Notes: a model not told the origin generated them from the sequence alone. A stretch of 64,000 nucleotides of DNA from a virus (IMGVR_UViG_3300032299_001015:20402-84401); one strand, 5' to 3'; positions 30,586 to 63,888 are shown, numbered from the stretch's first letter. Program-made: numbers and translations.

Positions 30586-30594
30586 ATAATATCA
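30586..30594 (-). promoter_or_regulatory. Extended -10 promoter, leaderless placement (head genes)
   Basis: The minus strand reads TGATATTAT then CAGGTAC then ATG, i.e. TG-N-TATTAT with seven bases to the start codon at 30578. No ribosome site fits in the gap. The same layout recurs in the early region. Confidence 0.5.
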
Positions 30595-51241: not shown

Positions 51242-51250
51242 TGATATTAT
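51242..51250 (+). promoter_or_regulatory. Extended -10 promoter for the lone plus-strand gene
   Basis: TGATATTAT (TG-N-TATTAT) at 51242-51250 is followed by six bases and then the ATG at 51257. The layout equals that of several early genes and would give a leaderless message. No ribosome site is present. Confidence 0.65.
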
Positions 51251-51256
51251 ATCGAC

Positions 51257-51469
51257 ATGATTACAATCCAAGAACTTCATGCGTACAAAAAATTATCTGA
51301 ATTGGGTCTAGTTCCATCTTTAGTTTGCCCAGTAGATGTATTTCATACAGAAGTGTTTCCATGGATAGATGAAGAGGACAAAATATGTTTATGGTGCATA
51401 TTTTGTAATGCAAAAGTTTATCTAGGTGAATTTAAAGAAGACTATATTAAAGGGTTACTTCATCGGTAA
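51257..51469 (+). CDS. Small cysteine-containing protein on the plus strand
   Basis: A 70-residue protein, MITIQELHAYKKLSELGLVP..., with a CLWCIFCNAKVYLGEF segment (about 43-58) that could be a zinc knuckle. It is the only plus-strand gene within the late minus-strand block and overlaps the 3' end of the gene on the other strand by 23 bases. The ATG follows an extended -10 box by six bases, so it should be leaderless. It is not recognised; a small early regulator is a guess from its promoter. Confidence 0.65.
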   Translation: MITIQELHAYKKLSELGLVPSLVCPVDVFHTEVFPWIDEEDKICLWCIFCNAKVYLGEFKEDYIKGLLHR

Positions 51470-54453: not shown

Positions 54454-54473
54454 TCTGCCTAACTTAATAGCGA

Positions 54474-54555
54474 GCGGCGGTATCGGTCTCGTCTTATAAG
54501 CGAGGGATTATAATGCCGTAATTGGTCCATGTGGGTTCAATTCCCACCCGCCGTA
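54474..54555 (+). tRNA. tRNA-like gene, anticodon UAU (Ile), lacking a D-arm
   Basis: A seven-pair acceptor (GCGGCGG / CCGCCGT), an anticodon arm CTCGT-CTTATAA-GCGAG with a classical CUNNNAA loop, and a perfect T-arm (GTGGG TTCAATT CCCAC) are clear. However, only seven bases (TATCGGT) separate acceptor and anticodon stem, so no D-arm can form, and 26 bases lie between anticodon and T arms. The anticodon UAU would read AUA. It may be a rare type of tRNA, a degenerate one or a tRNA-like regulator. Confidence 0.55.
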
Positions 54556-54561
54556 CAACAC

Positions 54562-54634
54562 GCCTCAGTAACTCAGGGGATAGAGTAACGCACTTCTAAT
54601 GCGTAAGTCGTAGGTTCGATTCCTACCTGGGGCA
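54562..54634 (+). tRNA. tRNA-Arg (anticodon UCU)
   Basis: A full cloverleaf of 73 bases: acceptor GCCTCAG/CTGGGGC, D-arm ACTC/GAGT, anticodon arm ACGCA-CTTCTAA-TGCGT with anticodon TCT, T-arm GTAGG TTCGATT CCTAC, discriminator A. Reads AGA/AGG arginine codons, common in the AT-rich late genes. No CCA is encoded. Confidence 0.93.
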
Positions 54635-54666
54635 CAAAGCGAAAGTCGAAAATAGAAAAGGCAACC

Positions 54667-55356
54667 ATGAACATTCTTGATAAAGGTTATATTAAATTAG
54701 TTAGTACTATGGGCTCTGATGTAGAAGTAGTTAATTCTGCAAGAGTCTCTTTTGATAAATCTATTACTACTCTAGGTAGAAGAGACTATTCACTTCTTGA
54801 TTATTTAATCTCTCACCGCCATGATTCTGTTTTGAGACATTGTGCTATGAGTTTTGAGATTTATGCTCCACTATTTGTAGCCAGACAATGGTGGAAGCAC
54901 CATATTGCTGCTACCGCATCGGAAGCACAAGACGGCTGGAATGAGTCCTCTCGCAGATATGTCACAGAGGAGCCAGAGTTCTATGTACCTGGCCCTTGGA
55001 GGGCCGCTAGCGATAATAAAAAACAAGGCAGCAGCGGAGAGATGTCAGAAGATATTTCTGGAAAGTATTCGAAGACTTTAGAGTACTTTATAGAAACAGG
55101 AATCAACATGTACGAGCAGGCCATGGCAGATGGTGTGGCACCAGAACAGGCTCGTTTGTTTCTTCCCGCCTACAGTATGTATATTCGGTGGCGGTGGACG
55201 GCTAGCCTTAATGCCATCCTTCATTTCTGTGACCTAAGACTAGATGAACATGCACAATGGGAAATACAACAATACGCTCATGAGGTATACTCTTTAGTTC
55301 AGGATAAATTTCCTGCAACTGTGACAAGTTGGGAAAAGTTTAGGAGAAGTCGTTGA
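54667..55356 (+). CDS. thyX: Flavin-dependent thymidylate synthase (ThyX)
   Basis: A 229-residue protein with ThyX features: KSITTLGRRDYSLLDYLISHRHDSVLRH, the FAD/dUMP-binding RQWWKHH (73-79) and NESSRRY (92-98). The normal RHRxxSxNExSxRY signature is interrupted by about eight extra residues (AATASEAQ region). A conserved QARLFLPAYSMYIRWRWTASL and a C-terminal helix complete it. It methylates dUMP to dTMP using FAD and folate. It follows two tRNA genes and starts at ATG 54667; the next gene begins with TTG, overlapping its stop. Confidence 0.9.
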   Translation: MNILDKGYIKLVSTMGSDVEVVNSARVSFDKSITTLGRRDYSLLDYLISHRHDSVLRHCAMSFEIYAPLFVARQWWKHHIAATASEAQDGWNESSRRYVTEEPEFYVPGPWRAASDNKKQGSSGEMSEDISGKYSKTLEYFIETGINMYEQAMADGVAPEQARLFLPAYSMYIRWRWTASLNAILHFCDLRLDEHAQWEIQQYAHEVYSLVQDKFPATVTSWEKFRRSR

Positions 55357-55580
55357 GTTCAGATAAATTTGCAGAAGATATCAACGAAAACCTGGGAGCA
55401 GTGCTTTATATTATGCTTGGTCGTATATACGACATGCTGATTCTTCTTGCAGATGCATCAGGTAAAGGTGAGGATGCTCTGCAATTAATCAATCTGCACT
55501 CACAGGGGCAATTAATGTCTCCCCCGCCCAGTTTGATGTTAGAAGATGATACATCAGAGGACGATGATGACAAGGAATGA
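55353..55580 (+). CDS. Acidic small protein, 75 aa
   Basis: Starts at a TTG (MSSDKFAEDINENLGAVLYIML) that overlaps the thyX stop. The first 50 residues are amphipathic or moderately hydrophobic helix (GAVLYIMLGRIYDMLILLA), the last 20 an acidic tail (EDDTSEDDDDKE). A helix-plus-acidic-tail shape suits a small protein-interaction peptide, but the family is not recognised. It overlaps the HNH gene by 17 bases. Confidence 0.6.
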   Translation: MSSDKFAEDINENLGAVLYIMLGRIYDMLILLADASGKGEDALQLINLHSQGQLMSPPPSLMLEDDTSEDDDDKE

Positions 55581-55923
55581 GAAAAGAAATTTAGAACGTA
55601 AACGTAAATGGGCTATATCTGGTCTTATTAAGACTTCAAGAGGATGTGAAAGTGGCAGTTGCCCCCTTCCGTCCGATTTTTTATTTGAATCTGTAGATTT
55701 AGATTTTGATCATGTCGATCCTAATGATAAAAAAGCCAATGTGTCTGATTTAATCCGCTCCGATTATGCATGGCCTACTATTCAAAATGAAATCAATAAG
55801 TGTCGTGTTATTTGTAAATTATGTCATGCACGACATTCCCGTGATACCCGCGCTTCTTATAATCAACATAAGACCGATATTTGTGATGAGCCGACCAGTA
55901 TTTCACATTTCCTTGGTATCTGA
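55564..55923 (+). CDS. HNH endonuclease-like protein
   Basis: About 119 residues from ATG 55564 (MMTRNEKRNLERKRKW); the ATG three bases later is equally possible. It has an HNH core (DLDFDHVDPNDKKANVSDLI, then NKCRVICKLCHARHSRDTR) and an upstream cysteine pair (CESGSCP). It is the style of the small HNH enzymes typical of actinobacterial phages. It overlaps the end of the preceding acidic gene. A cut-site or packaging role is possible but not shown; mobile is also possible. Confidence 0.85.
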   Translation: MMTRNEKRNLERKRKWAISGLIKTSRGCESGSCPLPSDFLFESVDLDFDHVDPNDKKANVSDLIRSDYAWPTIQNEINKCRVICKLCHARHSRDTRASYNQHKTDICDEPTSISHFLGI

Positions 55924-55937
55924 CCGTTATCAAATTG

Positions 55938-56363
55938 TTACCTTTTAAGGTAATCTATAGCGCTTTGCAAAAATTTTATATTGTCTTTAAACTGACCCAA
56001 TCCATTATTGCAATGTCTACAAAGAAGTCCACGAATCTTTCCTGTGGCATGACAATGATCAACATGTGCAGATTTATTAATGTCAGAATTACATATAGCA
56101 CAAGAATAACTTTGAGTCTCTAATAAGTTAAAAAATTCTTCCTTAGTTATTCCATAGAATAACTTTCTTCTTGTCCATAAAGATGAGTCTTTAGATGCCT
56201 GGGGATTTAACTCCCGCCACTTTTTATTCCTACTGAGCGAACATTCTTTGCAATATGCAGACATAAGATCTTTTCTTCCTTTATCTTGGTAGAAATCATT
56301 TCTATTTTTTACAGAGTTGCATAAACTACATTTCTTACTTTGCCTATTTGGATTAATTGTCAT
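55938..56363 (-). CDS. Recombination endonuclease VII-like protein
   Basis: About 141 residues from the ATG at 56363 (MTINPNRQSKKC); the reading frame continues five codons further. It has zinc cysteines (CSLC, CKEC) and the diagnostic YSCAICNSDINKSAHVDHCHATG with GKIRGLLCRHCNNGL (endonuclease VII type). Such enzymes cut branched DNA or act as homing nucleases. It is transcribed against its neighbours, and its ATG sits six bases after a TATAAT with no ribosome site. An inserted mobile gene is likely. Confidence 0.88.
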   Translation of the reverse strand: MTINPNRQSKKCSLCNSVKNRNDFYQDKGRKDLMSAYCKECSLSRNKKWRELNPQASKDSSLWTRRKLFYGITKEEFFNLLETQSYSCAICNSDINKSAHVDHCHATGKIRGLLCRHCNNGLGQFKDNIKFLQSAIDYLKR

Positions 56364-56369
56364 ATAACT

Positions 56370-56375
56370 ATTATA
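56370..56375 (-). promoter_or_regulatory. -10 box for the endonuclease VII gene, leaderless placement
   Basis: On the minus strand TGTATAATAGTTATATG has TATAAT then six bases then ATG 56363, with TG directly ahead of the -10. No ribosome site. Confidence 0.55.
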
Positions 56376-56620
56376 CACAAAAAGATTAACACTTTTATTT
56401 TGAACAAATGTTAGTGGCTAGCGAATTTGTATAATACACGATTTTAAGTAAGATTTTCCCAATTAAGTAGTGCGCCCATACGTCATGGCATATGTCAAGC
56501 CGACACGCCGACATTATGCGGATTGTTATAAAGGTGTCTCATTCCAGCATAATGCGGATTCTATAGTTATCATCCTGTTACCTAGGCATGTCCGATTTGT
56601 ATGCGTTTCTAGCGTCTCAA
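56376..56620. other. Intergenic regulatory stretch before the small-gene array
   Basis: This and the following 100 bases up to 56726 hold no gene I can support. It contains a rightward TATAAT (56430-56435), two near-copies of ATTATGCGGATT about 50 bases apart (near 56512 and 56550), and a TGTCCG-(A/T)TTTGTAT element at 56589 that recurs at 57457, in both cases exactly 32 bases before a TGTCAG copy. The base composition changes here from AT-rich to more GC-rich. Confidence 0.5.
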
Positions 56621-56642
56621 TGTCAGACCCCCATGCTAGGAT
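56621..56642 (+). promoter_or_regulatory. TGTCAGACC promoter-like element, copy A
   Basis: TGTCAGACCC at 56621, then TGCTAGGAT; the -10 (TAGGAT, 56637-56642) begins 16 bases after the first T. The gene at 56727 follows with a ribosome site, so here a leader of about 80 bases is expected. Confidence 0.7.
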
Positions 56643-56726
56643 CTACCTATAACTGAATATCTCCTAGGCAAATAAGCCCCATGAGGGATGAGCCCTAGGC
56701 CACACCGTAAGATAGAAAGGCTAGAC

Positions 56727-56921
56727 ATGAATACTCAGGCATACAAGGGTATTGCCCCTCGCACTACCGCCGCGCTTCGTGCGCGTCGCTCATTGGTCGC
56801 TCGTATTGGAAGCGATGCTGTCGCTGCACAGGATGCGGAGCGTGTGGACTACTACCGTGCGCTGATCGCGCAGGCTAAGGCTGCAGAGCGTAGACTGTCA
56901 GACCCTAGTGATAAGGTGTAA
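56727..56921 (+). CDS. Small basic/alanine-rich protein, 64 aa
   Basis: From ATG 56727 (MNTQAYKGIAPRTTAALR) after AAAGG; upstream codons in the same frame lack a start signal. The body is Arg/Ala-rich and helical (ALRARRSLVARIGSDAVAAQ, YRALIAQAKAAERRL) and ends LSDPSDKV. The final residues are coded by the next promoter element (copy B), so the C terminus LSDPSDKV is partly dictated by that element. Function unknown. Confidence 0.65.
   Translation: MNTQAYKGIAPRTTAALRARRSLVARIGSDAVAAQDAERVDYYRALIAQAKAAERRLSDPSDKV
56896..56917 (+). promoter_or_regulatory. TGTCAGACC promoter-like element, copy B, leaderless
   Basis: TGTCAGACCC at 56896 and TAAGGT at 56912-56917 overlap the end of the previous gene. 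ATG 56924 lies exactly six bases after the -10, so the transcript would start at the ATG. Confidence 0.75.
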
Positions 56922-56923
56922 TC

Positions 56924-57019
56924 ATGAGAACATTCCTGCAGCACGTTACTTCATTCGTCATCATTAGCGGTATCCTTACCGCTATGGCTATCGTTGGTGG
57001 AATAGAGGGAGGCTTCTAA
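56924..57019 (+). CDS. Small membrane peptide, 31 aa
   Basis: MRTFLQHVTSFVIISGIL, TAMAIVGG, ending IEGGF. One likely membrane helix. It begins six bases after the -10 of copy B without any ribosome site, so it should be a leaderless product. The ATG of the next gene overlaps its stop (TAATG). Membrane-acting early peptide is inference. Confidence 0.55.
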   Translation: MRTFLQHVTSFVIISGILTAMAIVGGIEGGF

Positions 57020-57276
57020 TGATTACCCGCGCAGAAGGTATCGTCAATGCTAAGGCTAAGATCGCGCATCCTATGGCCGATGAGGTTTCTATCGCTATGG
57101 GGCAGGGAGCGTATGCACGCTTTCCCTATTCCGTCGAACTTGCATTCTTCAAGAATGGAGATTGGGTAACTGAGCCTCTGCCAGAGTTTGCTGCACTCTA
57201 CTCTAATGAGGTCTACCCCTATGTCCCGCTGATCTACTTCGCACAGTTCCTTGAGAACTACGGCGCGGGAGGGTAG
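57019..57276 (+). CDS. Small protein of unknown function, 85 aa
   Basis: MITRAEGIVNAKAKIAH..., with a beta-strand-rich end (FPYSVELAFFKNGDWVTEPLPEF, YVPLIYFAQFLENYGAGG). Preceded by GGAGGC within the previous gene. Not a family I recognise. Followed by a terminator hairpin at 57282. Confidence 0.65.
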   Translation: MITRAEGIVNAKAKIAHPMADEVSIAMGQGAYARFPYSVELAFFKNGDWVTEPLPEFAALYSNEVYPYVPLIYFAQFLENYGAGG

Positions 57277-57281
57277 TAGCC

Positions 57282-57308
57282 AAAAACCCTTATAAATAAA
57301 GGGTTTTT
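57282..57308. terminator. Bidirectional hairpin terminator
   Basis: AAAAACCCTT and AAGGGTTTTT pair perfectly around ATAAATA. With A and U runs on both sides it can act in either direction. It ends the first small-gene transcript. Confidence 0.8.
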
Positions 57309-57313
57309 CAGTA

Positions 57314-57345
57314 CTTGACAAATCGCTTCTGCGGGGCCGGGCCGC
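57314..57345 (+). repeat. TTGACAA / GGGCCGGGCCGC module, copy 1
   Basis: CTTGACAAAT at 57314 and GGGGCCGGGCCGC at 57333-57345. The same two blocks recur at 58323, 59507, 60485 and 61804, each in the gap after a gene. Followed by TTACGATTACGTTACGA. Role unknown. Confidence 0.7.
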
Positions 57346-57488
57346 GAATCGGACATATCACCTAGGTTACGATTACGTTACGATGATCACGAATTACGGC
57401 ATGTCGATTTGACAGACATATTGGACATATCACCGTTACCAACCTGTTATGAAAGTTGTCCGTTTTGTATACATTCTGGATTAGGTAA

Positions 57489-57510
57489 TGTCAGACCCCT
57501 AGTGTAGAGT
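57489..57510 (+). promoter_or_regulatory. TGTCAGACC promoter-like element, copy C, leaderless
   Basis: TGTCAGACCCC at 57489, TAGAGT at 57505-57510, then seven bases to ATG 57518. A TGTCCGTTTTGTAT element lies 32 bases ahead of it, as before copy A. Confidence 0.72.
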
Positions 57511-57517
57511 CAGAGAC

Positions 57518-57676
57518 ATGAACAAGCAAAGAGTATGGAAGTACCAAGTAACCCTTACCGATCACCGCTCCTTCGTGGTGTCTGTCTTCTCCGCTGACCG
57601 TGATCCTTCCACGGTTGTCCGTCCCGAATTGCGGGACATGATCCTTGACGTAACTACCCTTGAGAGTGTAGGTTAG
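57518..57676 (+). CDS. Small protein, 52 aa
   Basis: MNKQRVWKYQVTLTDHRSF, VVSVFSADRDPSTVV, ending TTLESVG. Four or five beta strands are likely, a compact single domain. Not recognised. The ATG seven bases after the -10 indicates a leaderless message. Confidence 0.6.
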   Translation: MNKQRVWKYQVTLTDHRSFVVSVFSADRDPSTVVRPELRDMILDVTTLESVG

Positions 57677-57680
57677 TACC

Positions 57681-57965
57681 ATGATTGATTCAGTAGATCG
57701 TATCGTCACCACTCCGATTAGAGAGTGCCCTCCACTAGTTGAGGCCGTTGTCCTTACGGATAGCCCTATCCTAAATACTTTTTGGGTCACCATCGAACAA
57801 GATGGGCCTACCGATTACTTTGTAATCACTGAGGTAATTAGTGGATATGAGGAGATTGTATCTGGCTCTACTGTAGTAAAGTGGCTCAAGCCTGAGGACA
57901 TGAATGACCCCGTGATTCAGGCGGAATTGGTAGCGGGACTGGCTTCTATGGGATTGGAATTCTAA
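57681..57965 (+). CDS. Small protein, 94 aa
   Basis: MIDSVDRIVTTPIRECPP..., with beta-rich centre (FWVTIEQDGPTDYFVITEVIS) and an acidic helical end. Follows the previous gene by four bases. Not recognised. Coupled to the next gene by TAATG. Confidence 0.6.
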   Translation: MIDSVDRIVTTPIRECPPLVEAVVLTDSPILNTFWVTIEQDGPTDYFVITEVISGYEEIVSGSTVVKWLKPEDMNDPVIQAELVAGLASMGLEF

Positions 57966-58147
57966 TGTTTGATCTTCACGACTCCCGCTCAGGATTGACG
58001 TATCGCTGGAATCAATCCCACGGCGTGAGTATCTATAACCGCGAATGGGAAGAGATCGACTACTTCGAATTTGGATACATGGCAGATGGATCGCGCCCTA
58101 CCTTTGTAGAGTTTTGCGCGGCGGTTTCTAGGAGGACTAGTGAGTAA
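57965..58147 (+). CDS. Small protein, 60 aa
   Basis: MFDLHDSRSGLTYRWNQSH..., aromatic-rich, beta-strand pattern (GVSIYNREWEEIDYFEF), small alpha/beta. It starts on the stop of the previous gene and overlaps the next GTG. Unknown function. Confidence 0.55.
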   Translation: MFDLHDSRSGLTYRWNQSHGVSIYNREWEEIDYFEFGYMADGSRPTFVEFCAAVSRRTSE

Positions 58148-58337
58148 AGTAATAGAACGCCGTCCATTCGATATCAATATGACAATGCAATGGAATGACA
58201 TTCAGGAATTGCTCACACGATGCAAGCGCATGTGGGCATGTGCTGAGAATCCTGGCGACTTCCAAACTTTGGAAGAATTGGAGAAGTCTCTACACATTCT
58301 TGCGGAGAATATTCGAACTAGACTTGACAAATCCTGA
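58140..58337 (+). CDS. Small helical protein, 65 aa
   Basis: GTG start at 58140 behind TAGGAGGACTA. MSKVIERRPFDINMTMQW..., then helix DIQELLTRCKRMWACAEN and a second helix ELEKSLHILAENIRTRL. Its last codons overlap the next TTGACAA module. Unknown; a small helical-bundle protein. Confidence 0.55.
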   Translation: MSKVIERRPFDINMTMQWNDIQELLTRCKRMWACAENPGDFQTLEELEKSLHILAENIRTRLDKS

Positions 58338-58354
58338 AAGACGGGCCGGGCCGC
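58323..58354 (+). repeat. TTGACAA / GGGCCGGGCCGC module, copy 2
   Basis: CTTGACAAAT at 58323 and GGGCCGGGCCGC at 58343-58354, overlapping the end of the preceding gene, then ATTACGTTACGA and the promoter at 58391. Confidence 0.7.
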
Positions 58355-58390
58355 GTTTTGAAAATGTTATATAAATAATTACGTTACGAC

Positions 58391-58419
58391 TTGACAAGTA
58401 ACGGGAATTTTGATAGGTT
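58391..58419 (+). promoter_or_regulatory. Sigma70-like promoter with extended -10
   Basis: TTGACA (58391-58396), 17-base spacer, TAGGTT (58414-58419) preceded by TGA, i.e. TG-N-TAGGTT. The ATG at 58442 follows with AAAGGAG. The most canonical promoter in the window. Confidence 0.8.
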
Positions 58420-58441
58420 CGACCTGTCGAAAGGAGATATC

Positions 58442-58567
58442 ATGGGTTCTGTCATTATTCCCGTCGCGTGTGACTGGCACGCAGTCTACTCCATCCATGA
58501 GGATGGCGTATGGTATGGCCTCTACTGCGAGGAGTGTGATGAAACCTACCCGCCTGTGGCGGAGTAG
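58442..58567 (+). CDS. Small cysteine-containing protein, 41 aa
   Basis: MGSVIIPVACDWHAVYSIH, then YGLYCEECDETYPPVAE. A C10 ... CEEC arrangement could form a zinc site. An AAAGGAG ribosome site lies ahead. Unknown function. Confidence 0.6.
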   Translation: MGSVIIPVACDWHAVYSIHEDGVWYGLYCEECDETYPPVAE

Positions 58568-58579
58568 GCCCCGGCTCGC

Positions 58580-58601
58580 TGTCAGACCCCTGTGCTAGTC
58601 T
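58580..58601 (+). promoter_or_regulatory. TGTCAGACC promoter-like element, copy D
   Basis: TGTCAGACCCC at 58580 and TAGTCT at 58596-58601. The ATG at 58630 follows with a GAAAGGAC site, so a leader of about 20-25 bases is predicted. Confidence 0.7.
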
Positions 58602-58629
58602 TACGATACACATACGAAAGGACACGAAA

Positions 58630-58761
58630 ATGGCTCGCTGTGAAGATTACCCGTGCTGTGGACACACCGATGGCCTTGGCTGCAACTATGCCCCCGATAT
58701 GGAGGCAATCTATGCCTCTGTCCAGCGCCGTCTTGATGACGACTACTACGACTACTACTGA
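58630..58761 (+). CDS. Small CEDYPCCGH-type protein, 43 aa
   Basis: MARCEDYPCCGHTDGLGCNY, then APDMEAIYASVQRRL, ending in a D/Y-rich tail (DDDYYDYY). C and H residues (C4, C9, C10, H12, C18) look like a zinc or metal site. The CEDYPCCGH motif is common in actinobacteria and their phages, typically beside small metabolism genes; its role is not known. Confidence 0.7.
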   Translation: MARCEDYPCCGHTDGLGCNYAPDMEAIYASVQRRLDDDYYDYY

Positions 58762-58846
58762 AAGGCCCGGCCTGAAAATCTTCACATTGTCAAGTCTTAC
58801 GATGTGAAATACGACACACACGAAAACGGTCACGGGGATGCCTGAG

Positions 58847-58868
58847 TGTCAGACCCCTATGATAAAGT
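58847..58868 (+). promoter_or_regulatory. TGTCAGACC promoter-like element, copy E, leaderless
   Basis: TGTCAGACCCC at 58847, TAAAGT at 58863-58868, six bases, then ATG 58875. The 86 bases before it (58762-58846) carry a CCCGGCC core and TTGTCAAG but no gene. Confidence 0.75.
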
Positions 58869-58874
58869 CATCCT

Positions 58875-59021
58875 ATGAGTGAAAGTACAGAGATGCATTA
58901 TTACCCCGCCGACGAGGATTGGTTCGCTCGTCACCATGACGAGATGGAGGCTATGAAGTTGGGCCTTGACCTTGACCCTAACCCTTGGCTGTCAGACCCC
59001 CATGATAAGGTGAAGCCATGA
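58875..59021 (+). CDS. Small protein, 48 aa, ending in LSDPHDKVKP
   Basis: MSESTEMHYYPADEDWFAR, HHDEMEAMKLGLDLD, ending WLSDPHDKVKP. The last ten codons are the next promoter element (copy F), giving the same LSDPxDKV end as the 64-residue protein at 56727. Unknown; helical start. No ribosome site is present. Confidence 0.6.
   Translation: MSESTEMHYYPADEDWFARHHDEMEAMKLGLDLDPNPWLSDPHDKVKP
58990..59011 (+). promoter_or_regulatory. TGTCAGACC promoter-like element, copy F, leaderless
   Basis: TGTCAGACCCC at 58990, TAAGGT at 59006-59011, six bases, then ATG 59018. The element lies inside the coding end of the previous gene. Confidence 0.75.
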
Positions 59022-59155
59022 CCAACTACTACCGCGTGTTCTACTTGAACCGATTCAAGAAGGCATTCAATACCCGCGATAAGGCTCTGAAGTATGTTTC
59101 CTCTCAGGACGTACCTGAAGACTATGAGATTCTAGATTGGAGTGATGAACTGTGA
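59018..59155 (+). CDS. Small protein, 45 aa
   Basis: MTNYYRVFYLNRFKKAFNT, then RDKALKYVSSQDVPEDYE, ending LDWSDEL. It looks like a compact beta-hairpin plus helix. The start overlaps the preceding stop (CCATGA), and the next gene begins at a GTG inside its own stop (TGTGA). Unknown function. Confidence 0.6.
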   Translation: MTNYYRVFYLNRFKKAFNTRDKALKYVSSQDVPEDYEILDWSDEL

Positions 59156-59307
59156 AGTGCAATAAGTTTGGCGTAGAGTTTGAGAAGGCATGGCTAGATA
59201 ACTACTACATGCTTGGCGACCATGCTTTCGACTATGCGCGATGCATGTATCTGGATGACGGCACTCTGATTGTCGATGGGGTGCGCTATGAGGAGGTGCC
59301 TTTCTGA
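59152..59307 (+). CDS. Small protein, 51 aa
   Basis: Starts at GTG: MKCNKFGVEFEKAWLDNY, then MLGDHAFDYARCMYLDDGT, ending GVRYEEVPF. Small alpha/beta domain of unknown function. A GAGGAGGTG site in its last codons serves the WhiB-like gene that overlaps its stop. Confidence 0.6.
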   Translation: MKCNKFGVEFEKAWLDNYYMLGDHAFDYARCMYLDDGTLIVDGVRYEEVPF

Positions 59308-59522
59308 TGTGGCAGGATGGTGCAGCGTGCAAGGATGCGGATAGCAATCTTTTTCTTAGTGGTGTGACCTCGCGTGTAGAACAGGCTAAGAAGATTTGTG
59401 CAACGTGCAGCGTTGTGCAGGAGTGTCTAGAGTTTGCAATTCGCAATGAGGATTTTGAGCCTCATGTCTATGGTGGAATGACAGGTCAAGAAAGACGGCG
59501 TGTTTCCTTGACAAATGCCTGA
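59307..59522 (+). CDS. WhiB-like iron-sulfur transcription factor
   Basis: A 71-residue protein of the WhiB family, the iron-sulfur regulators confined to actinobacteria and their phages. Cysteines C8, C31, C34 and C40 bind the cluster (C-Xn-C-X2-C-X5-C). The GGMTGQERR segment at 56-64 matches the conserved G-G-x-T/W turn and basic end. WhiB proteins bind the housekeeping sigma factor and change promoter choice. It sits in the middle of the TGTCAGACC promoter array, so it may regulate the array; this is a hypothesis. Preceded by GAGGAGGTG. Confidence 0.9.
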   Translation: MWQDGAACKDADSNLFLSGVTSRVEQAKKICATCSVVQECLEFAIRNEDFEPHVYGGMTGQERRRVSLTNA

Positions 59523-59538
59523 AAGTGGGCCGGGCTGC
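59507..59538 (+). repeat. TTGACAA / GGGCCGGGCTGC module, copy 3
   Basis: CTTGACAAAT at 59507 and GGGCCGGGCTGC at 59527-59538; it overlaps the end of the WhiB-like gene and is followed by TTTACGA and TTACGA, then a promoter at 59578. Confidence 0.65.
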
Positions 59539-59577
59539 AATTCCAAGAATACTCATAGATTTACGACCTCTTACGAT

Positions 59578-59607
59578 TTGACACGGGGATCACGGTCATG
59601 ATAGGAT
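59578..59607 (+). promoter_or_regulatory. Sigma70-like promoter, leaderless placement
   Basis: TTGACA (59578-59583), 18-base spacer, TAGGAT (59602-59607) preceded by TGA, then six bases to ATG 59614. Both -35 and extended -10 elements are present. Confidence 0.8.
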
Positions 59608-59613
59608 CACTCT

Positions 59614-59760
59614 ATGAGTAATCGTGTCAGCCCCCGCCGTAGCACGGAGCATAATCGTATCGTTGTTGAGCGTCGTCGCTCTAATGCCGCGCAGCCTCAT
59701 AAGAATAAGGCCAAGTATTCGCGCAAGGACAAGCATCGTAACCGTTTCGTTACCGACTGA
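59614..59760 (+). CDS. Small highly basic protein, 48 aa
   Basis: MSNRVSPRRSTEHNRIVVE, then RRRSNAAQPHKNKAKYS, ending DKHRNRFVTD. It has about 18 lysine/arginine residues, so binding of RNA or DNA is likely. The ATG follows the -10 by six bases, so it should be leaderless. No family recognised. Confidence 0.65.
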   Translation: MSNRVSPRRSTEHNRIVVERRRSNAAQPHKNKAKYSRKDKHRNRFVTD

Positions 59761-59781
59761 TCCCAATATTCCCCCTTTCAA

Positions 59782-59803
59782 TGTCAGACCCTAGTGCTAG
59801 GAT
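59782..59803 (+). promoter_or_regulatory. TGTCAGACC promoter-like element, copy G, leaderless
   Basis: TGTCAGACCC at 59782, TAGGAT at 59798-59803, six bases, then ATG 59810. Confidence 0.75.
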
Positions 59804-59809
59804 CATTCC

Positions 59810-60367
59810 ATGATTACAGTTACCGCCCCTGAGGGCACACTCGCATACGCTACCTACGCCGCTCGCTTTGAGAGCCTTATCATGACCGCCACCCTTTCGC
59901 AGACTGAGGCTGCTAGCGTCTGGTACCATGACGCCGCTGCCGTTGCCTCTGAGGTTGCTCGTAACCTTGGCACCTCGCTTGAGGTTGGCGCGTCTATCGT
60001 TGCAGCATTCTCCCCGCGTGAGCGCTGGTCCACTAACGTCGCTAAGGCTATCGCGTACTCGCTTGGCTCGCGTCCCGCTGGCCTTGGCAATAATCTCCGC
60101 ATGGCTGACGCATCCGTAGCGGCAGGCTTTGATGCGCTCAAGGGTCAGAAGACTAACGCTTTCGCTCGCGCTATCGCAGGCGACACTAACGCGGTTGTCA
60201 TTGACGTTTGGATGATGCGTGCGGCAGGCATGGAGACTGACTCTCCTAATAAGACTCAATACGCTCTACTGTCTGAGGCTGTTGAGTCCGTTGCTGCACA
60301 GTTTGGAATCACACCGCGCACCGCGCAGGCTCTTATTTGGATCATCGTGCGAGGGGGTGCGGCGTGA
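59810..60367 (+). CDS. HhH-GPD-like / DUF7178-like protein
   Basis: A 185-residue protein, helical and Ala-rich. A central VAAFSPRERWSTNVAKAIAY segment resembles the LSPxxxWxxN region of phage proteins related to helix-hairpin-helix DNA glycosylases. GQKTNAFARAIAGDTNAVVIDVW follows and agrees with the conserved KxxxF and D-x-W ends. It may bind or repair DNA. The catalytic Lys/Asp cannot be confirmed. Leaderless start; GC-rich codons. Confidence 0.6.
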   Translation: MITVTAPEGTLAYATYAARFESLIMTATLSQTEAASVWYHDAAAVASEVARNLGTSLEVGASIVAAFSPRERWSTNVAKAIAYSLGSRPAGLGNNLRMADASVAAGFDALKGQKTNAFARAIAGDTNAVVIDVWMMRAAGMETDSPNKTQYALLSEAVESVAAQFGITPRTAQALIWIIVRGGAA

Positions 60368-60424
60368 ACGATATCACGCTAGAGAACTTTCGGGAGATGC
60401 TGCGCGATTTTGTGGGAGTGTGAT

Positions 60425-60502
60425 ATGGAGATTTTTCTCGTAACTATTGCGCTATTTCTAGGTATTGGAATCCTGATAGGCCTACTTGACAAAAGGCCCT
60501 AA
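60425..60502 (+). CDS. Possible membrane peptide, 25 aa
   Basis: MEIFLVTIALFLGIGILIG, LLDKRP. One membrane helix, no ribosome site clear (a very short GTG frame, 60364-60423, precedes it). Its end overlaps the next TTGACAA module. Low-confidence. Confidence 0.3.
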   Translation: MEIFLVTIALFLGIGILIGLLDKRP

Positions 60503-60516
60503 AGGGCCCGGCCCGC
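60485..60516 (+). repeat. TTGACAA / GGGCCCGGCCCGC module, copy 4
   Basis: CTTGACAAAA at 60485, GGGCCCGGCCCGC at 60504-60516, with GGCCC-TAAA-GGGCC able to fold, and a TTGTCAA close by on the right (inverted form of TTGACAA). TTTACGA follows. Confidence 0.65.
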
Positions 60517-60615
60517 AAATCCTAATCTTGTCAAGTATTTACGACGACATTTAAGAAGTCACTGGAAATTGTCACTGAAATGTTATCTAAATAATCTAAT
60601 AGAAATCCTTGAGAC

Positions 60616-60637
60616 TGTCAGACCTAGAGTGTATAGT
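60616..60637 (+). promoter_or_regulatory. TGTCAGACC promoter-like element, copy H
   Basis: TGTCAGACC at 60616 and TATAGT at 60632-60637; ATG 60672 follows about 34 bases later with AAGGAG. Upstream GTCACTGGAAAT and GTCACTGAAAT repeats occur (60560-60590). Confidence 0.7.
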
Positions 60638-60671
60638 TCTTCTATAAGTTCAATCAACTAAGGAGATACAT

Positions 60672-61667
60672 ATGGCACACGCAGTAGAGGTTGGCGCTAA
60701 CGGCGAGCAGGCTTTTGCTTCCTTCCGCGAACCCGCATGGCATGGTCTTGGTACCGTGTTCTTTGAGGAGAAGTCCACCCGCGAGATGCTGGATGCGGCT
60801 TACCTTTCCAACTGGAACGTCCGCCTTGAGGCCGTTCCTTACCCTTCCACCTACAATGTCATCACGCCTTCCTACATGGTACTGCGTGACAATCCCTTTG
60901 ACCAGGGTACTGACGTTCTCGCTACCGTTGGCGAGCGTTACCACGTTCTTCAGAACGAGGATCTTTTCGACTTTGGTGATGCGCTGCTTGACGGTGGTCG
61001 CTGGGAGACTGCTGGCTCTATTCGTCAGGGTCGCGTTGTGTTCGGTTCGCTTGCGCTTGAGCGTAAGACTGTTCTTGATCCCAAGGGCGTGTCGGATGTT
61101 GTGAAGTCCTACCTTCTTGTCCACACCTCGCATGACGGTTCTACCGCTGTGCAGGCTTCCATCACTCCCGTCCGCGTTGTGTGCCAGAACACTCTCAACA
61201 TGGCTCTTCAGGGTGTGAAGCAGTCCTTCAAGATTCGTCACACGCAGACCGTAGGCGGTAAGGTCATGGCTGCACGCGAGGCTCTTTCTCTCGCCAATCA
61301 GTACCTCGACACCTTCGACAAGGAGGCTCAGGCTCTCATCGCCAAGGAGATCACCAAGGCTAAGTTCGATGCCATTCTTGAGGCTGTCTACCCGCGTCCT
61401 GAGGCTGATGCTAAGGGTGCTGTCAAGAAGTGGGAGACTAAGGTCGATCTGCTGGAGGAGATTTACTCTTCCGATACCACCAACATGATCGCAGGCACCG
61501 CGTGGGGTGCGTTCAATGCTCTCACGGAGCGTCTGGACTGGTTCCGCAAGGGTCGTGGCGAGCGGGGTGCTGAGAATGTTCTCGCTGCCGCTAGCGGTTT
61601 CGATCCTGTCACCAATGCGGAGAAGGGTCGCATCCTGAAGGCTGTCAAGGAGATCGCCTTCGCGTAA
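60672..61667 (+). CDS. DUF932 / TIGR03299 phage protein
   Basis: A 331-residue protein with DUF932 features: REPAWHGLGTVFFEEKST, MLDAAYLSNWNVRLEAVP, then LENRGRWETAGSIRQGRVVFGSL-like strands and RVVCQNTLNMALQ near 175. Widespread in phages and plasmids of unknown biochemical role; possibly DNA-binding or modification-related. It has a strong AAGGAG site and a GC-rich, high-expression codon set, suggesting one of the more abundant early proteins. Confidence 0.9.
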   Translation: MAHAVEVGANGEQAFASFREPAWHGLGTVFFEEKSTREMLDAAYLSNWNVRLEAVPYPSTYNVITPSYMVLRDNPFDQGTDVLATVGERYHVLQNEDLFDFGDALLDGGRWETAGSIRQGRVVFGSLALERKTVLDPKGVSDVVKSYLLVHTSHDGSTAVQASITPVRVVCQNTLNMALQGVKQSFKIRHTQTVGGKVMAAREALSLANQYLDTFDKEAQALIAKEITKAKFDAILEAVYPRPEADAKGAVKKWETKVDLLEEIYSSDTTNMIAGTAWGAFNALTERLDWFRKGRGERGAENVLAAASGFDPVTNAEKGRILKAVKEIAFA

Positions 61668-61676
61668 GGCTATCCT

Positions 61677-61693
61677 GACATGGATGCCATGTC
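61677..61693 (+). terminator. Perfect hairpin GACATGG/CCATGTC
   Basis: A seven-pair perfect stem with loop ATG right after the DUF932 stop. No U run follows. Possible terminator or 3'-end stabiliser. Confidence 0.4.
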
Positions 61694-61735
61694 GTGGTAT
61701 CCTAACATCCTGGGCATGATGTAAAACTGCCCCGA

Positions 61736-61803
61736 TCCACCCGCGCTGGGCGCAGACGGGCCTCCAAAACCTGTCGGGCAGAGTTCGATCCTCTGGGGTG
61801 GGG
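61736..61803 (+). tRNA. tRNA-Trp-like gene (anticodon CCA), short D-arm
   Basis: Acceptor TCCACCC / GGGTGGG, anticodon arm CGGGC-CTCCAAA-ACCTG with anticodon CCA, T-arm CAGAG TTCGATC CTCTG. The D-arm region is only 14 bases (GCGCTGGGCGCAGA), and could form GCGC-TGG-GCGC with a three-base loop; one mismatch lies in the anticodon stem. Total 68 bases. Reads UGG, or is degenerate. Confidence 0.6.
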
Positions 61804-61832
61804 CTTGACAAATCTAATAAAAACGGGCCGGG
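61804..61832 (+). repeat. TTGACAA / GGGCCGGG module, copy 5
   Basis: CTTGACAAAT at 61804 and GGGCCGGG at 61825-61832, then TTGTCAA (inverted form) and TTTACGATTACGA, followed by two TCACAGGAAT copies. Confidence 0.65.
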
Positions 61833-61915
61833 ATAAATAATTCATTTTGTCAATATTTACGATTACGATTAAGAAATCACAGGAATATTTCACAGGAATT
61901 TTTAAGAATGCACCC

Positions 61916-61944
61916 TTGACGATCACGGCAATATCGTGTACTTT
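61916..61944 (+). promoter_or_regulatory. Sigma70-like promoter for 61975 gene
   Basis: TTGACG (61916-61921), 17-base spacer, TACTTT (61939-61944) preceded by TG. A GAGGGGAGGAAATAG leader with a strong ribosome site precedes ATG 61975. Confidence 0.65.
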
Positions 61945-61974
61945 AGAGGCATAACTGAAGAGGGGAGGAAATAG

Positions 61975-62184
61975 ATGGGTGAATACCTAGTTGTTGATAA
62001 GTTATATGGGTTCTCTATAGAACATAATGATATTCTCCGCACCGCCGACGGAAATGAGATAGTCGTTTCCTTTGTAGATTCGGTGGAAGGAGGGTATGAT
62101 ATTCACTATAAAGACCTTGACGGAGAGGAAGATATCTACCACCTCCCCGAAGATGACATGATCGACCTACTCATTCTAGAATAA
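61975..62184 (+). CDS. Small acidic protein, 69 aa
   Basis: MGEYLVVDKLYGFSIEHND..., beta-rich small domain (ILRTADGNEIVVSFVDSVEGG, YDIHYKDLDGEEDIYHL) with an acidic end. Might be an SH3- or tudor-like small barrel. Unknown function. A strong ribosome site precedes it; AAGGAG serves the next gene. Confidence 0.65.
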   Translation: MGEYLVVDKLYGFSIEHNDILRTADGNEIVVSFVDSVEGGYDIHYKDLDGEEDIYHLPEDDMIDLLILE

Positions 62185-62194
62185 GGAGAAACAA

Positions 62195-62350
62195 ATGGCT
62201 AAGAAGAAGGAAAACAAGTTCTCATATCTTGAGACTTGGAACACTCGCTACGGGGTTCAGACTCGTATTGTCACCCGCATTGATGGCAAGTTCGTTGATT
62301 CAACACCCGCACTTGAGACACTCCGCAAGGGCGTCCCTGCTGGTCGCTGA
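62195..62350 (+). CDS. Small basic protein, 51 aa
   Basis: MAKKKENKFSYLETWNTRY, then GVQTRIVTRIDGKFVDST, ending RKGVPAGR. Basic, beta-strand-rich; a small nucleic-acid-binding or ribosomal-like fold is possible. Starts 10 bases after the previous stop with AAGGAG. Confidence 0.6.
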   Translation: MAKKKENKFSYLETWNTRYGVQTRIVTRIDGKFVDSTPALETLRKGVPAGR

Positions 62351-62354
62351 CCAG

Positions 62355-62391
62355 TTGGGCGAACCTGGGCATGTTCGCTAAAACTGCCCAA
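62355..62391 (+). other. Structured inverted repeat between gene and tRNA-Leu
   Basis: TTGGGC (62355-62360) pairs with GCCCAA (62386-62391), and GCGAAC with GTTCGC inside it, giving two alternative stems. The stretch resembles TGGGCATG...AAAACTGCCC at 61710-61732. Possibly a terminator or RNA processing signal. Nothing else is seen from 62392 to 62467. Confidence 0.35.
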
Positions 62392-62467
62392 TGCGGTTGA
62401 GATCCTAGTAAGTTGTGGGATAGGTTATGTAGAGGATCTGCGATGACACTCCCCACACACCGCATAA

Positions 62468-62548
62468 GCCTGAGTGGTGGAATTGGCAGACACGCACGAC
62501 TCAAAATCGTGTTCCATTGGAGTGTGGGTTCAAGTCCCACCTTAGGCA
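62468..62548 (+). tRNA. tRNA-Leu (anticodon CAA)
   Basis: Acceptor GCCTGAG / CTTAGGC, anticodon arm CACGA-CTCAAAA-TCGTG (anticodon CAA), long variable arm as in type II tRNAs, T-arm GTGGG TTCAAGT CCCAC. Reads UUG codons, common in the AT-rich late genes. No CCA encoded. Confidence 0.93.
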
Positions 62549-62557
62549 CATAAAGTC

Positions 62558-62587
62558 TTGACTAATGTCAGACCCTCATGATAGAGT
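62558..62587 (+). promoter_or_regulatory. TGTCAGACC promoter-like element, copy I, with -35
   Basis: TTGACT at 62558-62563, TGTCAGACCC at 62566, TAGAGT at 62582-62587 (18-base spacer from the -35). ATG 62617 follows with AGAAAGG. The only copy with a near-consensus -35. Confidence 0.72.
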
Positions 62588-62616
62588 TTCACTACCTACT
62601 ACAGAAAGGCACTCTC

Positions 62617-63006
62617 ATGGGTGACCGCGCTAATTTCGGACTTCGACAGGTCGATGGCAACATCATCTACGTCTACGGACATTGGGCAGGCGAGGGTATG
62701 CTTGCTAGGTTTGCTAATGCTCTTGACCGTGTTCAGGATGCTGGACGCATTGACGACCAGGCTTATGCTAATCGCATCATCATTTCACGTTTGGTTGGCG
62801 ATGCATGGTCTAGTGACTATAACTGGGGTGTTACCGTCAATTACCTTACAGACAACGAGCATAAGGTTCCTGTCTTTGACTTTGCATTCAAGACCGTTAC
62901 TCTCTATGACTATGACTGGACGGCGGGAGTGCTGACTGATATCATTGTAGAGTTCTCGCTGAACGAGTTCATCAACAAGTACGCTAATACCTTGATGGAG
63001 GTGTGA
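62617..63006 (+). CDS. Conserved phage hypothetical (MGDRANFG family)
   Basis: 129 residues from ATG 62617 (MGDRANFGLRQVDGNIIYVY). The motif GHWAGEGMLARFANALDRV and LTDNEHKVPVFDFAFKTVTLY are typical of a small family seen in many phages, including actinophages. Its biochemical role is unknown. The promoter copy I and AGAAAGG lie ahead. Followed directly by a coiled-coil gene. Confidence 0.75.
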   Translation: MGDRANFGLRQVDGNIIYVYGHWAGEGMLARFANALDRVQDAGRIDDQAYANRIIISRLVGDAWSSDYNWGVTVNYLTDNEHKVPVFDFAFKTVTLYDYDWTAGVLTDIIVEFSLNEFINKYANTLMEV

Positions 63007-63007
63007 C

Positions 63008-63430
63008 ATGATTGATCCTAGTATGACTGACATTCATCCATTCCCGCCCACGATGCAGGAATTGGAGCGGCAGGTCATCGAACTTCAGAGCAATCTGGAT
63101 TCTATGACCGCTGACCGTGATTTCTGGCAGGGTAAGGCCCATGAGCGGAAGTTGATGATTGACAACCTTGAGGAATACATCAAGGATCAGTTTGACTACA
63201 TTGATGAGAATGTATCTCAGAGCATTGTCGATATCTTTGGTTTCAATATCACCAAGGACTACGATGTGACAATTACCGTCACATTCTCTGGTATTGTGAC
63301 TGCTCCTCTCAATTTCGACATGGATAGCCTTGAGGATTCTCTGAATGCTAGTCTTGATGTGTCCTACTACAGCGATCTAGAGTCTGATTTCTCAGAGGAT
63401 CATATGGAGATTGACTGGACAAAGAGTTAG
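63008..63430 (+). CDS. Coiled-coil protein, 140 aa
   Basis: MIDPSMTDIHPFPPTMQEL..., a heptad-type helix (about 15-60, RQVIELQSNLDSMTADRDFW) followed by a beta-rich and acidic second half (YDVTITVTFSGIV, YYSDLESDFSEDHMEI). Unknown. Ribosome site GGAGGTG overlaps the previous gene's stop region. Followed at once by tRNA-Glu. Confidence 0.65.
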   Translation: MIDPSMTDIHPFPPTMQELERQVIELQSNLDSMTADRDFWQGKAHERKLMIDNLEEYIKDQFDYIDENVSQSIVDIFGFNITKDYDVTITVTFSGIVTAPLNFDMDSLEDSLNASLDVSYYSDLESDFSEDHMEIDWTKS

Positions 63431-63437
63431 TAAGGCC

Positions 63438-63510
63438 GCTCCCATCGTCTAGAGGCCAAGGACGCCGCCCTTTCAAGGCGGTAGCACGGGTTCGAATCCC
63501 GTTGGGAGTA
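63438..63510 (+). tRNA. tRNA-Glu (anticodon UUC)
   Basis: Full cloverleaf: acceptor GCTCCCA / TGGGAGT, anticodon arm CCGCC-CTTTCAA-GGCGG (anticodon TTC), T-arm ACGGG TTCGAAT CCCGT. CCA follows directly (63511-63513), so the 3' end may be encoded. 73 bases plus CCA. Confidence 0.94.
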
Positions 63511-63513
63511 CCA

Positions 63514-63701: not shown

Positions 63702-63723
63702 TGTCAGACCCCTCTGCTACGAT
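63702..63723 (+). promoter_or_regulatory. TGTCAGACC promoter-like element, copy J
   Basis: TGTCAGACCCC at 63702, TACGAT at 63718-63723; ATG 63748 follows with AGGAGGAG, leader about 18 bases. Confidence 0.7.
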
Positions 63724-63747: not shown

Positions 63748-63888
63748 ATGAGCAATCCATACGTTGTAGAGGTAACGTGCATGGTTCTTGTCCATGCCGA
63801 AGACCTTGATTCTGCCACCGACTCTGCTATCGCAGAGTTGGAGGAGATCGCCTTTGACATTGACGTTCTTTCCACTAAGCCCTGGTAG
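63748..63888 (+). CDS. Small acidic protein, 46 aa
   Basis: MSNPYVVEVTCMVLVHAED, then LDSATDSAIAELEEIAF, ending LSTKPW. Acidic helical second half. ATG 63748 chosen for AGGAGGAG just ahead. Unknown function. Confidence 0.6.
   Translation: MSNPYVVEVTCMVLVHAEDLDSATDSAIAELEEIAFDIDVLSTKPW

Follow-up and report, generated by a model that had tools for sequence, protein, structure and literature searches.

Putative leaderless genes behind PafBC-like promoters in a gene block of actinobacterial phages

A block of small genes in the viral record IMGVR_UViG_3300032299_001015 appears to be expressed from leaderless mRNAs, with transcription predicted to start on the A of the ATG codon. Such mRNAs would begin with AUG, and 70S ribosomes would initiate on them whole, without a Shine-Dalgarno site. 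Comparison with related phages strongly supports the leaderless starts, on the basis of a bimodal distribution of promoter-to-ATG distances, an A located independently at the start sites of leadered promoters, and the conservation of a 6- to 7-base gap. Most of the promoters appear to have the PafBC (RecA-independent DNA-damage) architecture, with TGTCAG at about -28 to -23 and an extended -10, and their probable reader would be host RNA polymerase with sigma A and the host WYL heterodimer PafBC. A farther-reaching reading, at a probability of roughly 0.45, is that these actinophages run a takeover gene block from a phage-preferred ACCC form of the host's single-stranded DNA-sensing PafBC promoter class, as leaderless mRNAs; the PafBC step taken by itself has slightly better than even odds. 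If the full reading is correct, expression would rise upon host DNA damage or in the presence of single-stranded phage DNA, and the Shine-Dalgarno step would be unneeded.

RESULTS

Predicted leaderless and leadered genes share a promoter

The window is the whole 64,000-nucleotide stretch of DNA analyzed, taken from a viral record of 84,401 bases (positions 20402-84401). Its hosts are probably actinobacteria, judging from a WhiB gene and the named relatives of its DUF932 and DUF7178 proteins. The gap is defined as the number of bases from the end of the -10 hexamer (its last base excluded) to the ATG. The first-pass annotation had proposed that six clustered ATGs, between 56924 and 59810, begin six or seven bases after a -10 hexamer, and that the same layout recurs at three other sites. 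All nine gaps are as it described, and 6 to 7 nt make a ribosome site between the hexamer and the ATG impossible. The promoters and the genes that they are predicted to serve are as follows (window positions).

56896..56917, plus strand: TGTCAG (-26)/TAAGGT (-10) promoter for 56924, gap 6
56924..57019, plus strand: leaderless ORF predicted from the gap, 31 aa, hydrophobic
57489..57510, plus strand: TGTCAG/TAGAGT promoter for 57518, gap 7
57518..57676, plus strand: predicted leaderless ORF, 52 aa; identical protein and same layout in locus L249
58847..58868, plus strand: TGTCAG/TAAAGT promoter for 58875, gap 6
58875..59021, plus strand: predicted leaderless ORF, 48 aa; gap 6 also in L243 and L110
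58990..59011, plus strand: TGTCAG/TAAGGT promoter for 59018, gap 6, within the 3' end of the 58875 ORF
59018..59155, plus strand: predicted leaderless ORF, 45 aa, with a 4-nt overlap with the upstream stop (ATGA)
59578..59607, plus strand: TTGACA-N18-TAGGAT promoter (other class) for 59614, gap 6; same in L244 and L245
59614..59760, plus strand: predicted leaderless ORF, 48-aa basic protein
59782..59803, plus strand: TGTCAG/TAGGAT promoter for 59810, gap 6
59810..60367, plus strand: predicted leaderless DUF7178 protein, 185 aa (Pfam 4e-32)
51242..51250, plus strand: extended -10 TGATATTAT (TATTAT), without TGTCAG, for 51257, gap 6
51257..51469, plus strand: leaderless ORF predicted from the gap, 70 aa, cysteine-bearing
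56370..56375, minus strand: TATAAT for 56363, an endonuclease VII-like gene (PF02945, 1.4e-25), gap 6
30586..30591, minus strand: TATTAT for 30578, a 108-codon ORF, gap 7

Across the full record (84,401 bases), the long motif TGTCAGACC-N7-TAnnnT has 10 perfect matches, all on the plus strand between 56621 and 63723, and its reversed form has none. Five of the six main-cluster ATGs carry it, the exception being 59614. Half of the copies (5/10) have an ATG at gap 6 to 7, for which the probability by chance is 9.5e-7 given the local frequency of ATGs opening ORFs of at least 25 codons. The remaining five precede leadered genes, in agreement with the earlier suggestion that other copies of the promoter drive genes with ribosome sites.

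56621..56642, plus strand: long-motif promoter, leadered gene at 56727, leader of ~80 nt with GAAAGG
58580..58601, plus strand: long-motif promoter, Shine-Dalgarno-led gene at 58630
60616..60637, plus strand: long-motif promoter, Shine-Dalgarno-led DUF932 gene at 60672
62566..62587, plus strand: long-motif promoter, Shine-Dalgarno-led gene at 62617
63702..63723, plus strand: long-motif promoter, Shine-Dalgarno-led gene at 63748

The last four were assigned to the Shine-Dalgarno class automatically and start at a gap of 24, 28, 29, or 34, while the leader of the gene at 56727 exceeds the search range of that classification. Taken across the window, bare TAnnnT hexamers have no ATG peak at gap 6; the signal is thus a property of full or extended promoters rather than of bare hexamers, and the sites at 51257, 56363, and 30578 are weakened as evidence when taken alone.

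The gap distribution in related phages is bimodal

A set of 44 related viral loci (411 kb, not all independent of each other) was collected through protein similarity to the product of the 59810 gene (DUF7178), a choice blind to promoters. The loose motif TGTCNG-N10-TAnnnT was found at 362 sites in these loci and its reverse at 12. ATGs followed by an open frame of 25 codons or more lie at gap 6 in 81 cases and at gap 7 in 16, fall to between 0 and 4 at most positions from gap 8 to gap 20 (with 8 at gap 10), and peak again at gaps of 21 to 40, where Shine-Dalgarno sites lie upstream. The distribution is bimodal: one promoter, two layouts, and little in between. Complete scans of viral contigs gave the promoter with an ATG at gap 6 in 91 stretches and at gap 12 in 15. 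In a broader motif scan blind to ATGs, leadered genes dominate and gap 6 to 7 forms a minor peak, which indicates that leaderless use characterizes this group more than it does motif-bearing phages generally. Among the matches listed, metagenomic phage contigs (L128-L202 and others) very often carry TGTCAGACCC promoters, mostly with GAAAGG-bearing leaders.

The leadered genes also allow the transcription start to be located. The related loci contain 225 Shine-Dalgarno-led promoters, of which 92% have an A at gap 6 and 90% a C or T at gap 5. A pyrimidine followed by a purine is the usual transcription start signal, so gap 6 is the probable +1, a position obtained independently of ATGs because Shine-Dalgarno-led promoters need no ATG there. 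The A of the ATG in the leaderless genes falls on this same position. In addition, the base after the ATG is an A in 90% of leaderless genes versus 41% of Shine-Dalgarno-led ones (sites in L243-L286). Part of this preference belongs to the initially transcribed bases, as leadered promoters likewise have an A at gap 9 in 62% of cases. In mycobacterial reporters, no base preference was seen downstream of the start codon (PMC4633059), and the A after the ATG may set these phages apart from mycobacteria.

The promoters resemble PafBC sites

The RecA-independent damage promoter of mycobacteria reads tTGTCRgtg-8nt-TannnT (PMC5656591). It is recognized by way of PafBC, which, once single-stranded DNA has activated it, lies between the DNA and domain 4 of sigma A; PafB contacts the motif at -26 (PMC11804915). 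If +1 is taken as gap 6, TGTCAG occupies -28 to -23 with exactly the spacing of the PafBC consensus; all 10 window sites have the TGTCRG core at the fixed distance from TAnnnT (8 nt after TGTCRGnn). The published core ends in gtg, given in lowercase as less conserved; the window copies lack it and read ACC after TGTCAG. Among related phages, the ACCC and GTGG forms both occur, and A and G are not the only bases at core position 5 (T makes up 9-19% there in the related loci). The TGTCAG promoters have a strong TG extended -10 and no evident -35.

Counterparts are found in actinobacterial chromosomes. The sequence TTGTCAGTGGC..TGnTACCTT precedes recA in four actinobacterial genomes of 1.3 to 1.4 Mb, and adjacent WYL pairs are present in 3/3 of those tested. 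The leaderless pattern with the ACCCC form occurs seven times in bacterial chromosomes, always in actinobacteria, before genes for DprA, a RadA-like protein (a name read from the sequence, Pfam showing ATPase and Lon-like domains only), DUF222, DUF2779, two mycothiol-S-transferases, and an ADP-ribosyltransferase. The looser TGTCRG form precedes apparent YcaQ-type and DUF222 genes, named by eye. At five chromosomal loci (L333, L345, L323, L342, and L325), actinobacterial genes, apparently for YcaQ-type and DUF222 proteins, start at gap 6 to 7 after TGTCRG promoters. Host damage-response genes may, from these chromosomal loci, often be leaderless themselves. Host chromosomes rarely have the ACC form, which was present in 1 of 79 genomes of the class, namely, the seed. 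The phage elements therefore do not simply copy the PafBC sites of hosts; their optimum may be particular to the phages, or another factor may read the ACC form.

Candidate activators were sought in the phage and 20 related records (21 in total). None of the 21 contains a WYL domain, so that no phage-coded WYL activator was found in them, and none contains sigma-70 region 2 (PF04542), although the phage record is possibly incomplete; a phage-encoded sigma factor was accordingly rejected as the promoter reader. Any PafBC-type activator would thus putatively be the host's. One possible phage regulator, and rival activator, is encoded in the window.

59307..59522, plus strand: WhiB-like protein (PF02467, 6.5e-17)

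The most serious alternative accepts leaderless expression but has TGTCAG read by a factor other than PafBC: a phage WhiB-like protein that works through region 4 of sigma A, some other host activator, or the polymerase alone through the extended -10. Jointly, these candidates fall somewhat short of an even chance. WhiB-like genes are found in 20 of the 21 records, the host-rare ACC in place of GTG and the strong TG extended -10 are both compatible with a different reader, and some leaderless promoters have TTGACA without TGTCAG. Against these points, the activator of the first genes must predate phage protein synthesis, the core and spacing equal those of the recA promoter of small actinobacterial genomes, and sigma-70 region 2 is absent from the 21 records. 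The description of the genes as early, made in the first-pass annotation, is a timing suggested by their position and gene content.

The gap is conserved while promoters and proteins change

In the close clade of the DUF7178 gene, the element varies, with TGTCAGACC giving way to TGTCGGACC, TGTCAGTCC, TGTCTGACT, and others, yet gap 6 is retained. Another branch is leadered, with starts at gap 24 to 33 and a Shine-Dalgarno site; for the homologue in a cluster A mycobacteriophage, a leaderless layout was rejected, as it has a Shine-Dalgarno leader. In the family of the 59614 protein, a -10 lies at gap 6 or 7 in 25 of 25 relatives, under TGTCNG or TTGACA promoters, and the counterpart in L243 uses TATGCT as its -10. 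The 59614 protein has no match in named phages. Altogether, members with the leaderless layout occur in 37 protein families, and nine of these families have Shine-Dalgarno-led members as well. Within the sequences compared, then, homologous genes keep the 6- to 7-base gap even as their promoters and proteins diverge.

The earlier proposal that leaderless starts are the rule for a group of genes holds for some families, of which that of 59614 is the clearest, and fails for others: DUF7178 and 56924 have relatives that are also Shine-Dalgarno led. Relatives of 56924 include leaderless genes, Shine-Dalgarno-led genes (L125 and L079), and coupled GTG starts (L252, L249, L067, and L044). The 59018 ORF has Shine-Dalgarno leaders in its relatives L021 and L117. 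Of the sites outside the cluster, 51257 retains gap 6 to 7 in five loci (L067, L119, L082, L317, and L106), and 56363 and 30578 have one relative each (L145 and L112, respectively), both at gap 6. In the stretch examined of Streptomyces phage Riptide, which covers early genes, no TGTCNG promoter precedes a gene.

Clear coding constraint is seen at 59810, 56924, and 59018. The 56924 protein is 100% identical in L244 and has a purifying pattern of change in L251 and L125, and 59018 has a pS of 0.6 versus a pN of 0.25 to 0.28 against L021 and L117. For 59614 the direction is right, with few changes, and for 58875 the constraint is weak (few close pairs). The promoters at 56896-56917 and 58990-59011 overlap coding sequence, and the upstream ORFs end in SDPSDKV or SDPHDKVKP.

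The ATG of 56924 directly follows an upstream stop and that of 59018 overlaps one, so that coupled translation is also possible for these two genes. Extended to the whole set, this would mean translation from a longer polycistronic mRNA by coupling or internal starts, with the adjacent promoter yielding little mRNA, and the coupled GTG relatives of 56924, which have no promoter, would fit. We consider it improbable: 57518, 58875, 59614, and 59810 come after intergenic sequence, and the exact 6- to 7-nt gap is conserved without a Shine-Dalgarno site, whereas coupling would not fix the distance to the -10. That ATGs lie near -10-like hexamers by chance, as the missing gap-6 peak for bare TAnnnT in the window might suggest, can be dismissed for practical purposes given the full motif (P of ~1e-6 in the window), the excess at gap 6 (81 versus a few per position in relatives; 91 versus 15 collection-wide), and the conservation that already contradicts it for the six clustered sites.

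Relation to known systems

Leaderless genes and PafBC promoters are each known; their combination appears to be new, as neither it nor its conservation in a phage group was found in the literature searched, which covered few subscription papers. In T4, sigma appropriation by MotA/AsiA relies on an adaptor that substitutes for the contact of sigma region 4 with the -35. That adaptor is a phage protein, whereas here it would be a host stress factor.

In mycobacteria, any 5' ATG or GTG can start translation (PMC4633059). The phage genes share with mycobacterial and other actinobacterial leaderless mRNAs an ATG at the (predicted) transcript start, the lack of a Shine-Dalgarno site, and many small proteins, and differ from them in using nearly only ATG, not GTG, in the prevalence of A after it, and in forming a phage gene block, known here from sequence alone. 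Phage genes that start at +1 have precedents in gene 90 of mycobacteriophage Adephagia, which is predicted to be leaderless (PMC11373665), and in the lambda and P2 genes named in PMC4633059; the present case, itself a prediction, involves several genes of a single block and 37 families in related phages, mostly with one promoter type. With PafBC, or RecA-NDp, promoters (PMC5656591, PMC11804915) the phage promoters share TGTCRG at -26, the 8-nt spacing, and TAnnnT. Unlike them, most phage copies have ACC rather than GTG, they serve phage genes, and the phage records encode no WYL activator.

With one promoter type serving matched leaderless and leadered genes, these phages provide a large natural comparison set, and the clear cases in which the same gene switches mode make it testable why a gene is leaderless. 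They also point to a possible link between actinobacterial phage gene expression and the host DNA-damage response, and correct gene starts that Shine-Dalgarno-based gene callers may miss.

A DNA similarity search against named phages gave no match, nor did a short promoter query, which probably falls below BLAST sensitivity; a literature search with the motif string returned unrelated sequences only, among the matches listed. Five tRNA genes (Ile-TAT, Arg-TCT, Trp, Leu-CAA, and Glu) are interspersed with small genes at 54467-63513 of the window, and a thymidylate synthase-like gene (phrog_85, 54667-55356) adjoins them.
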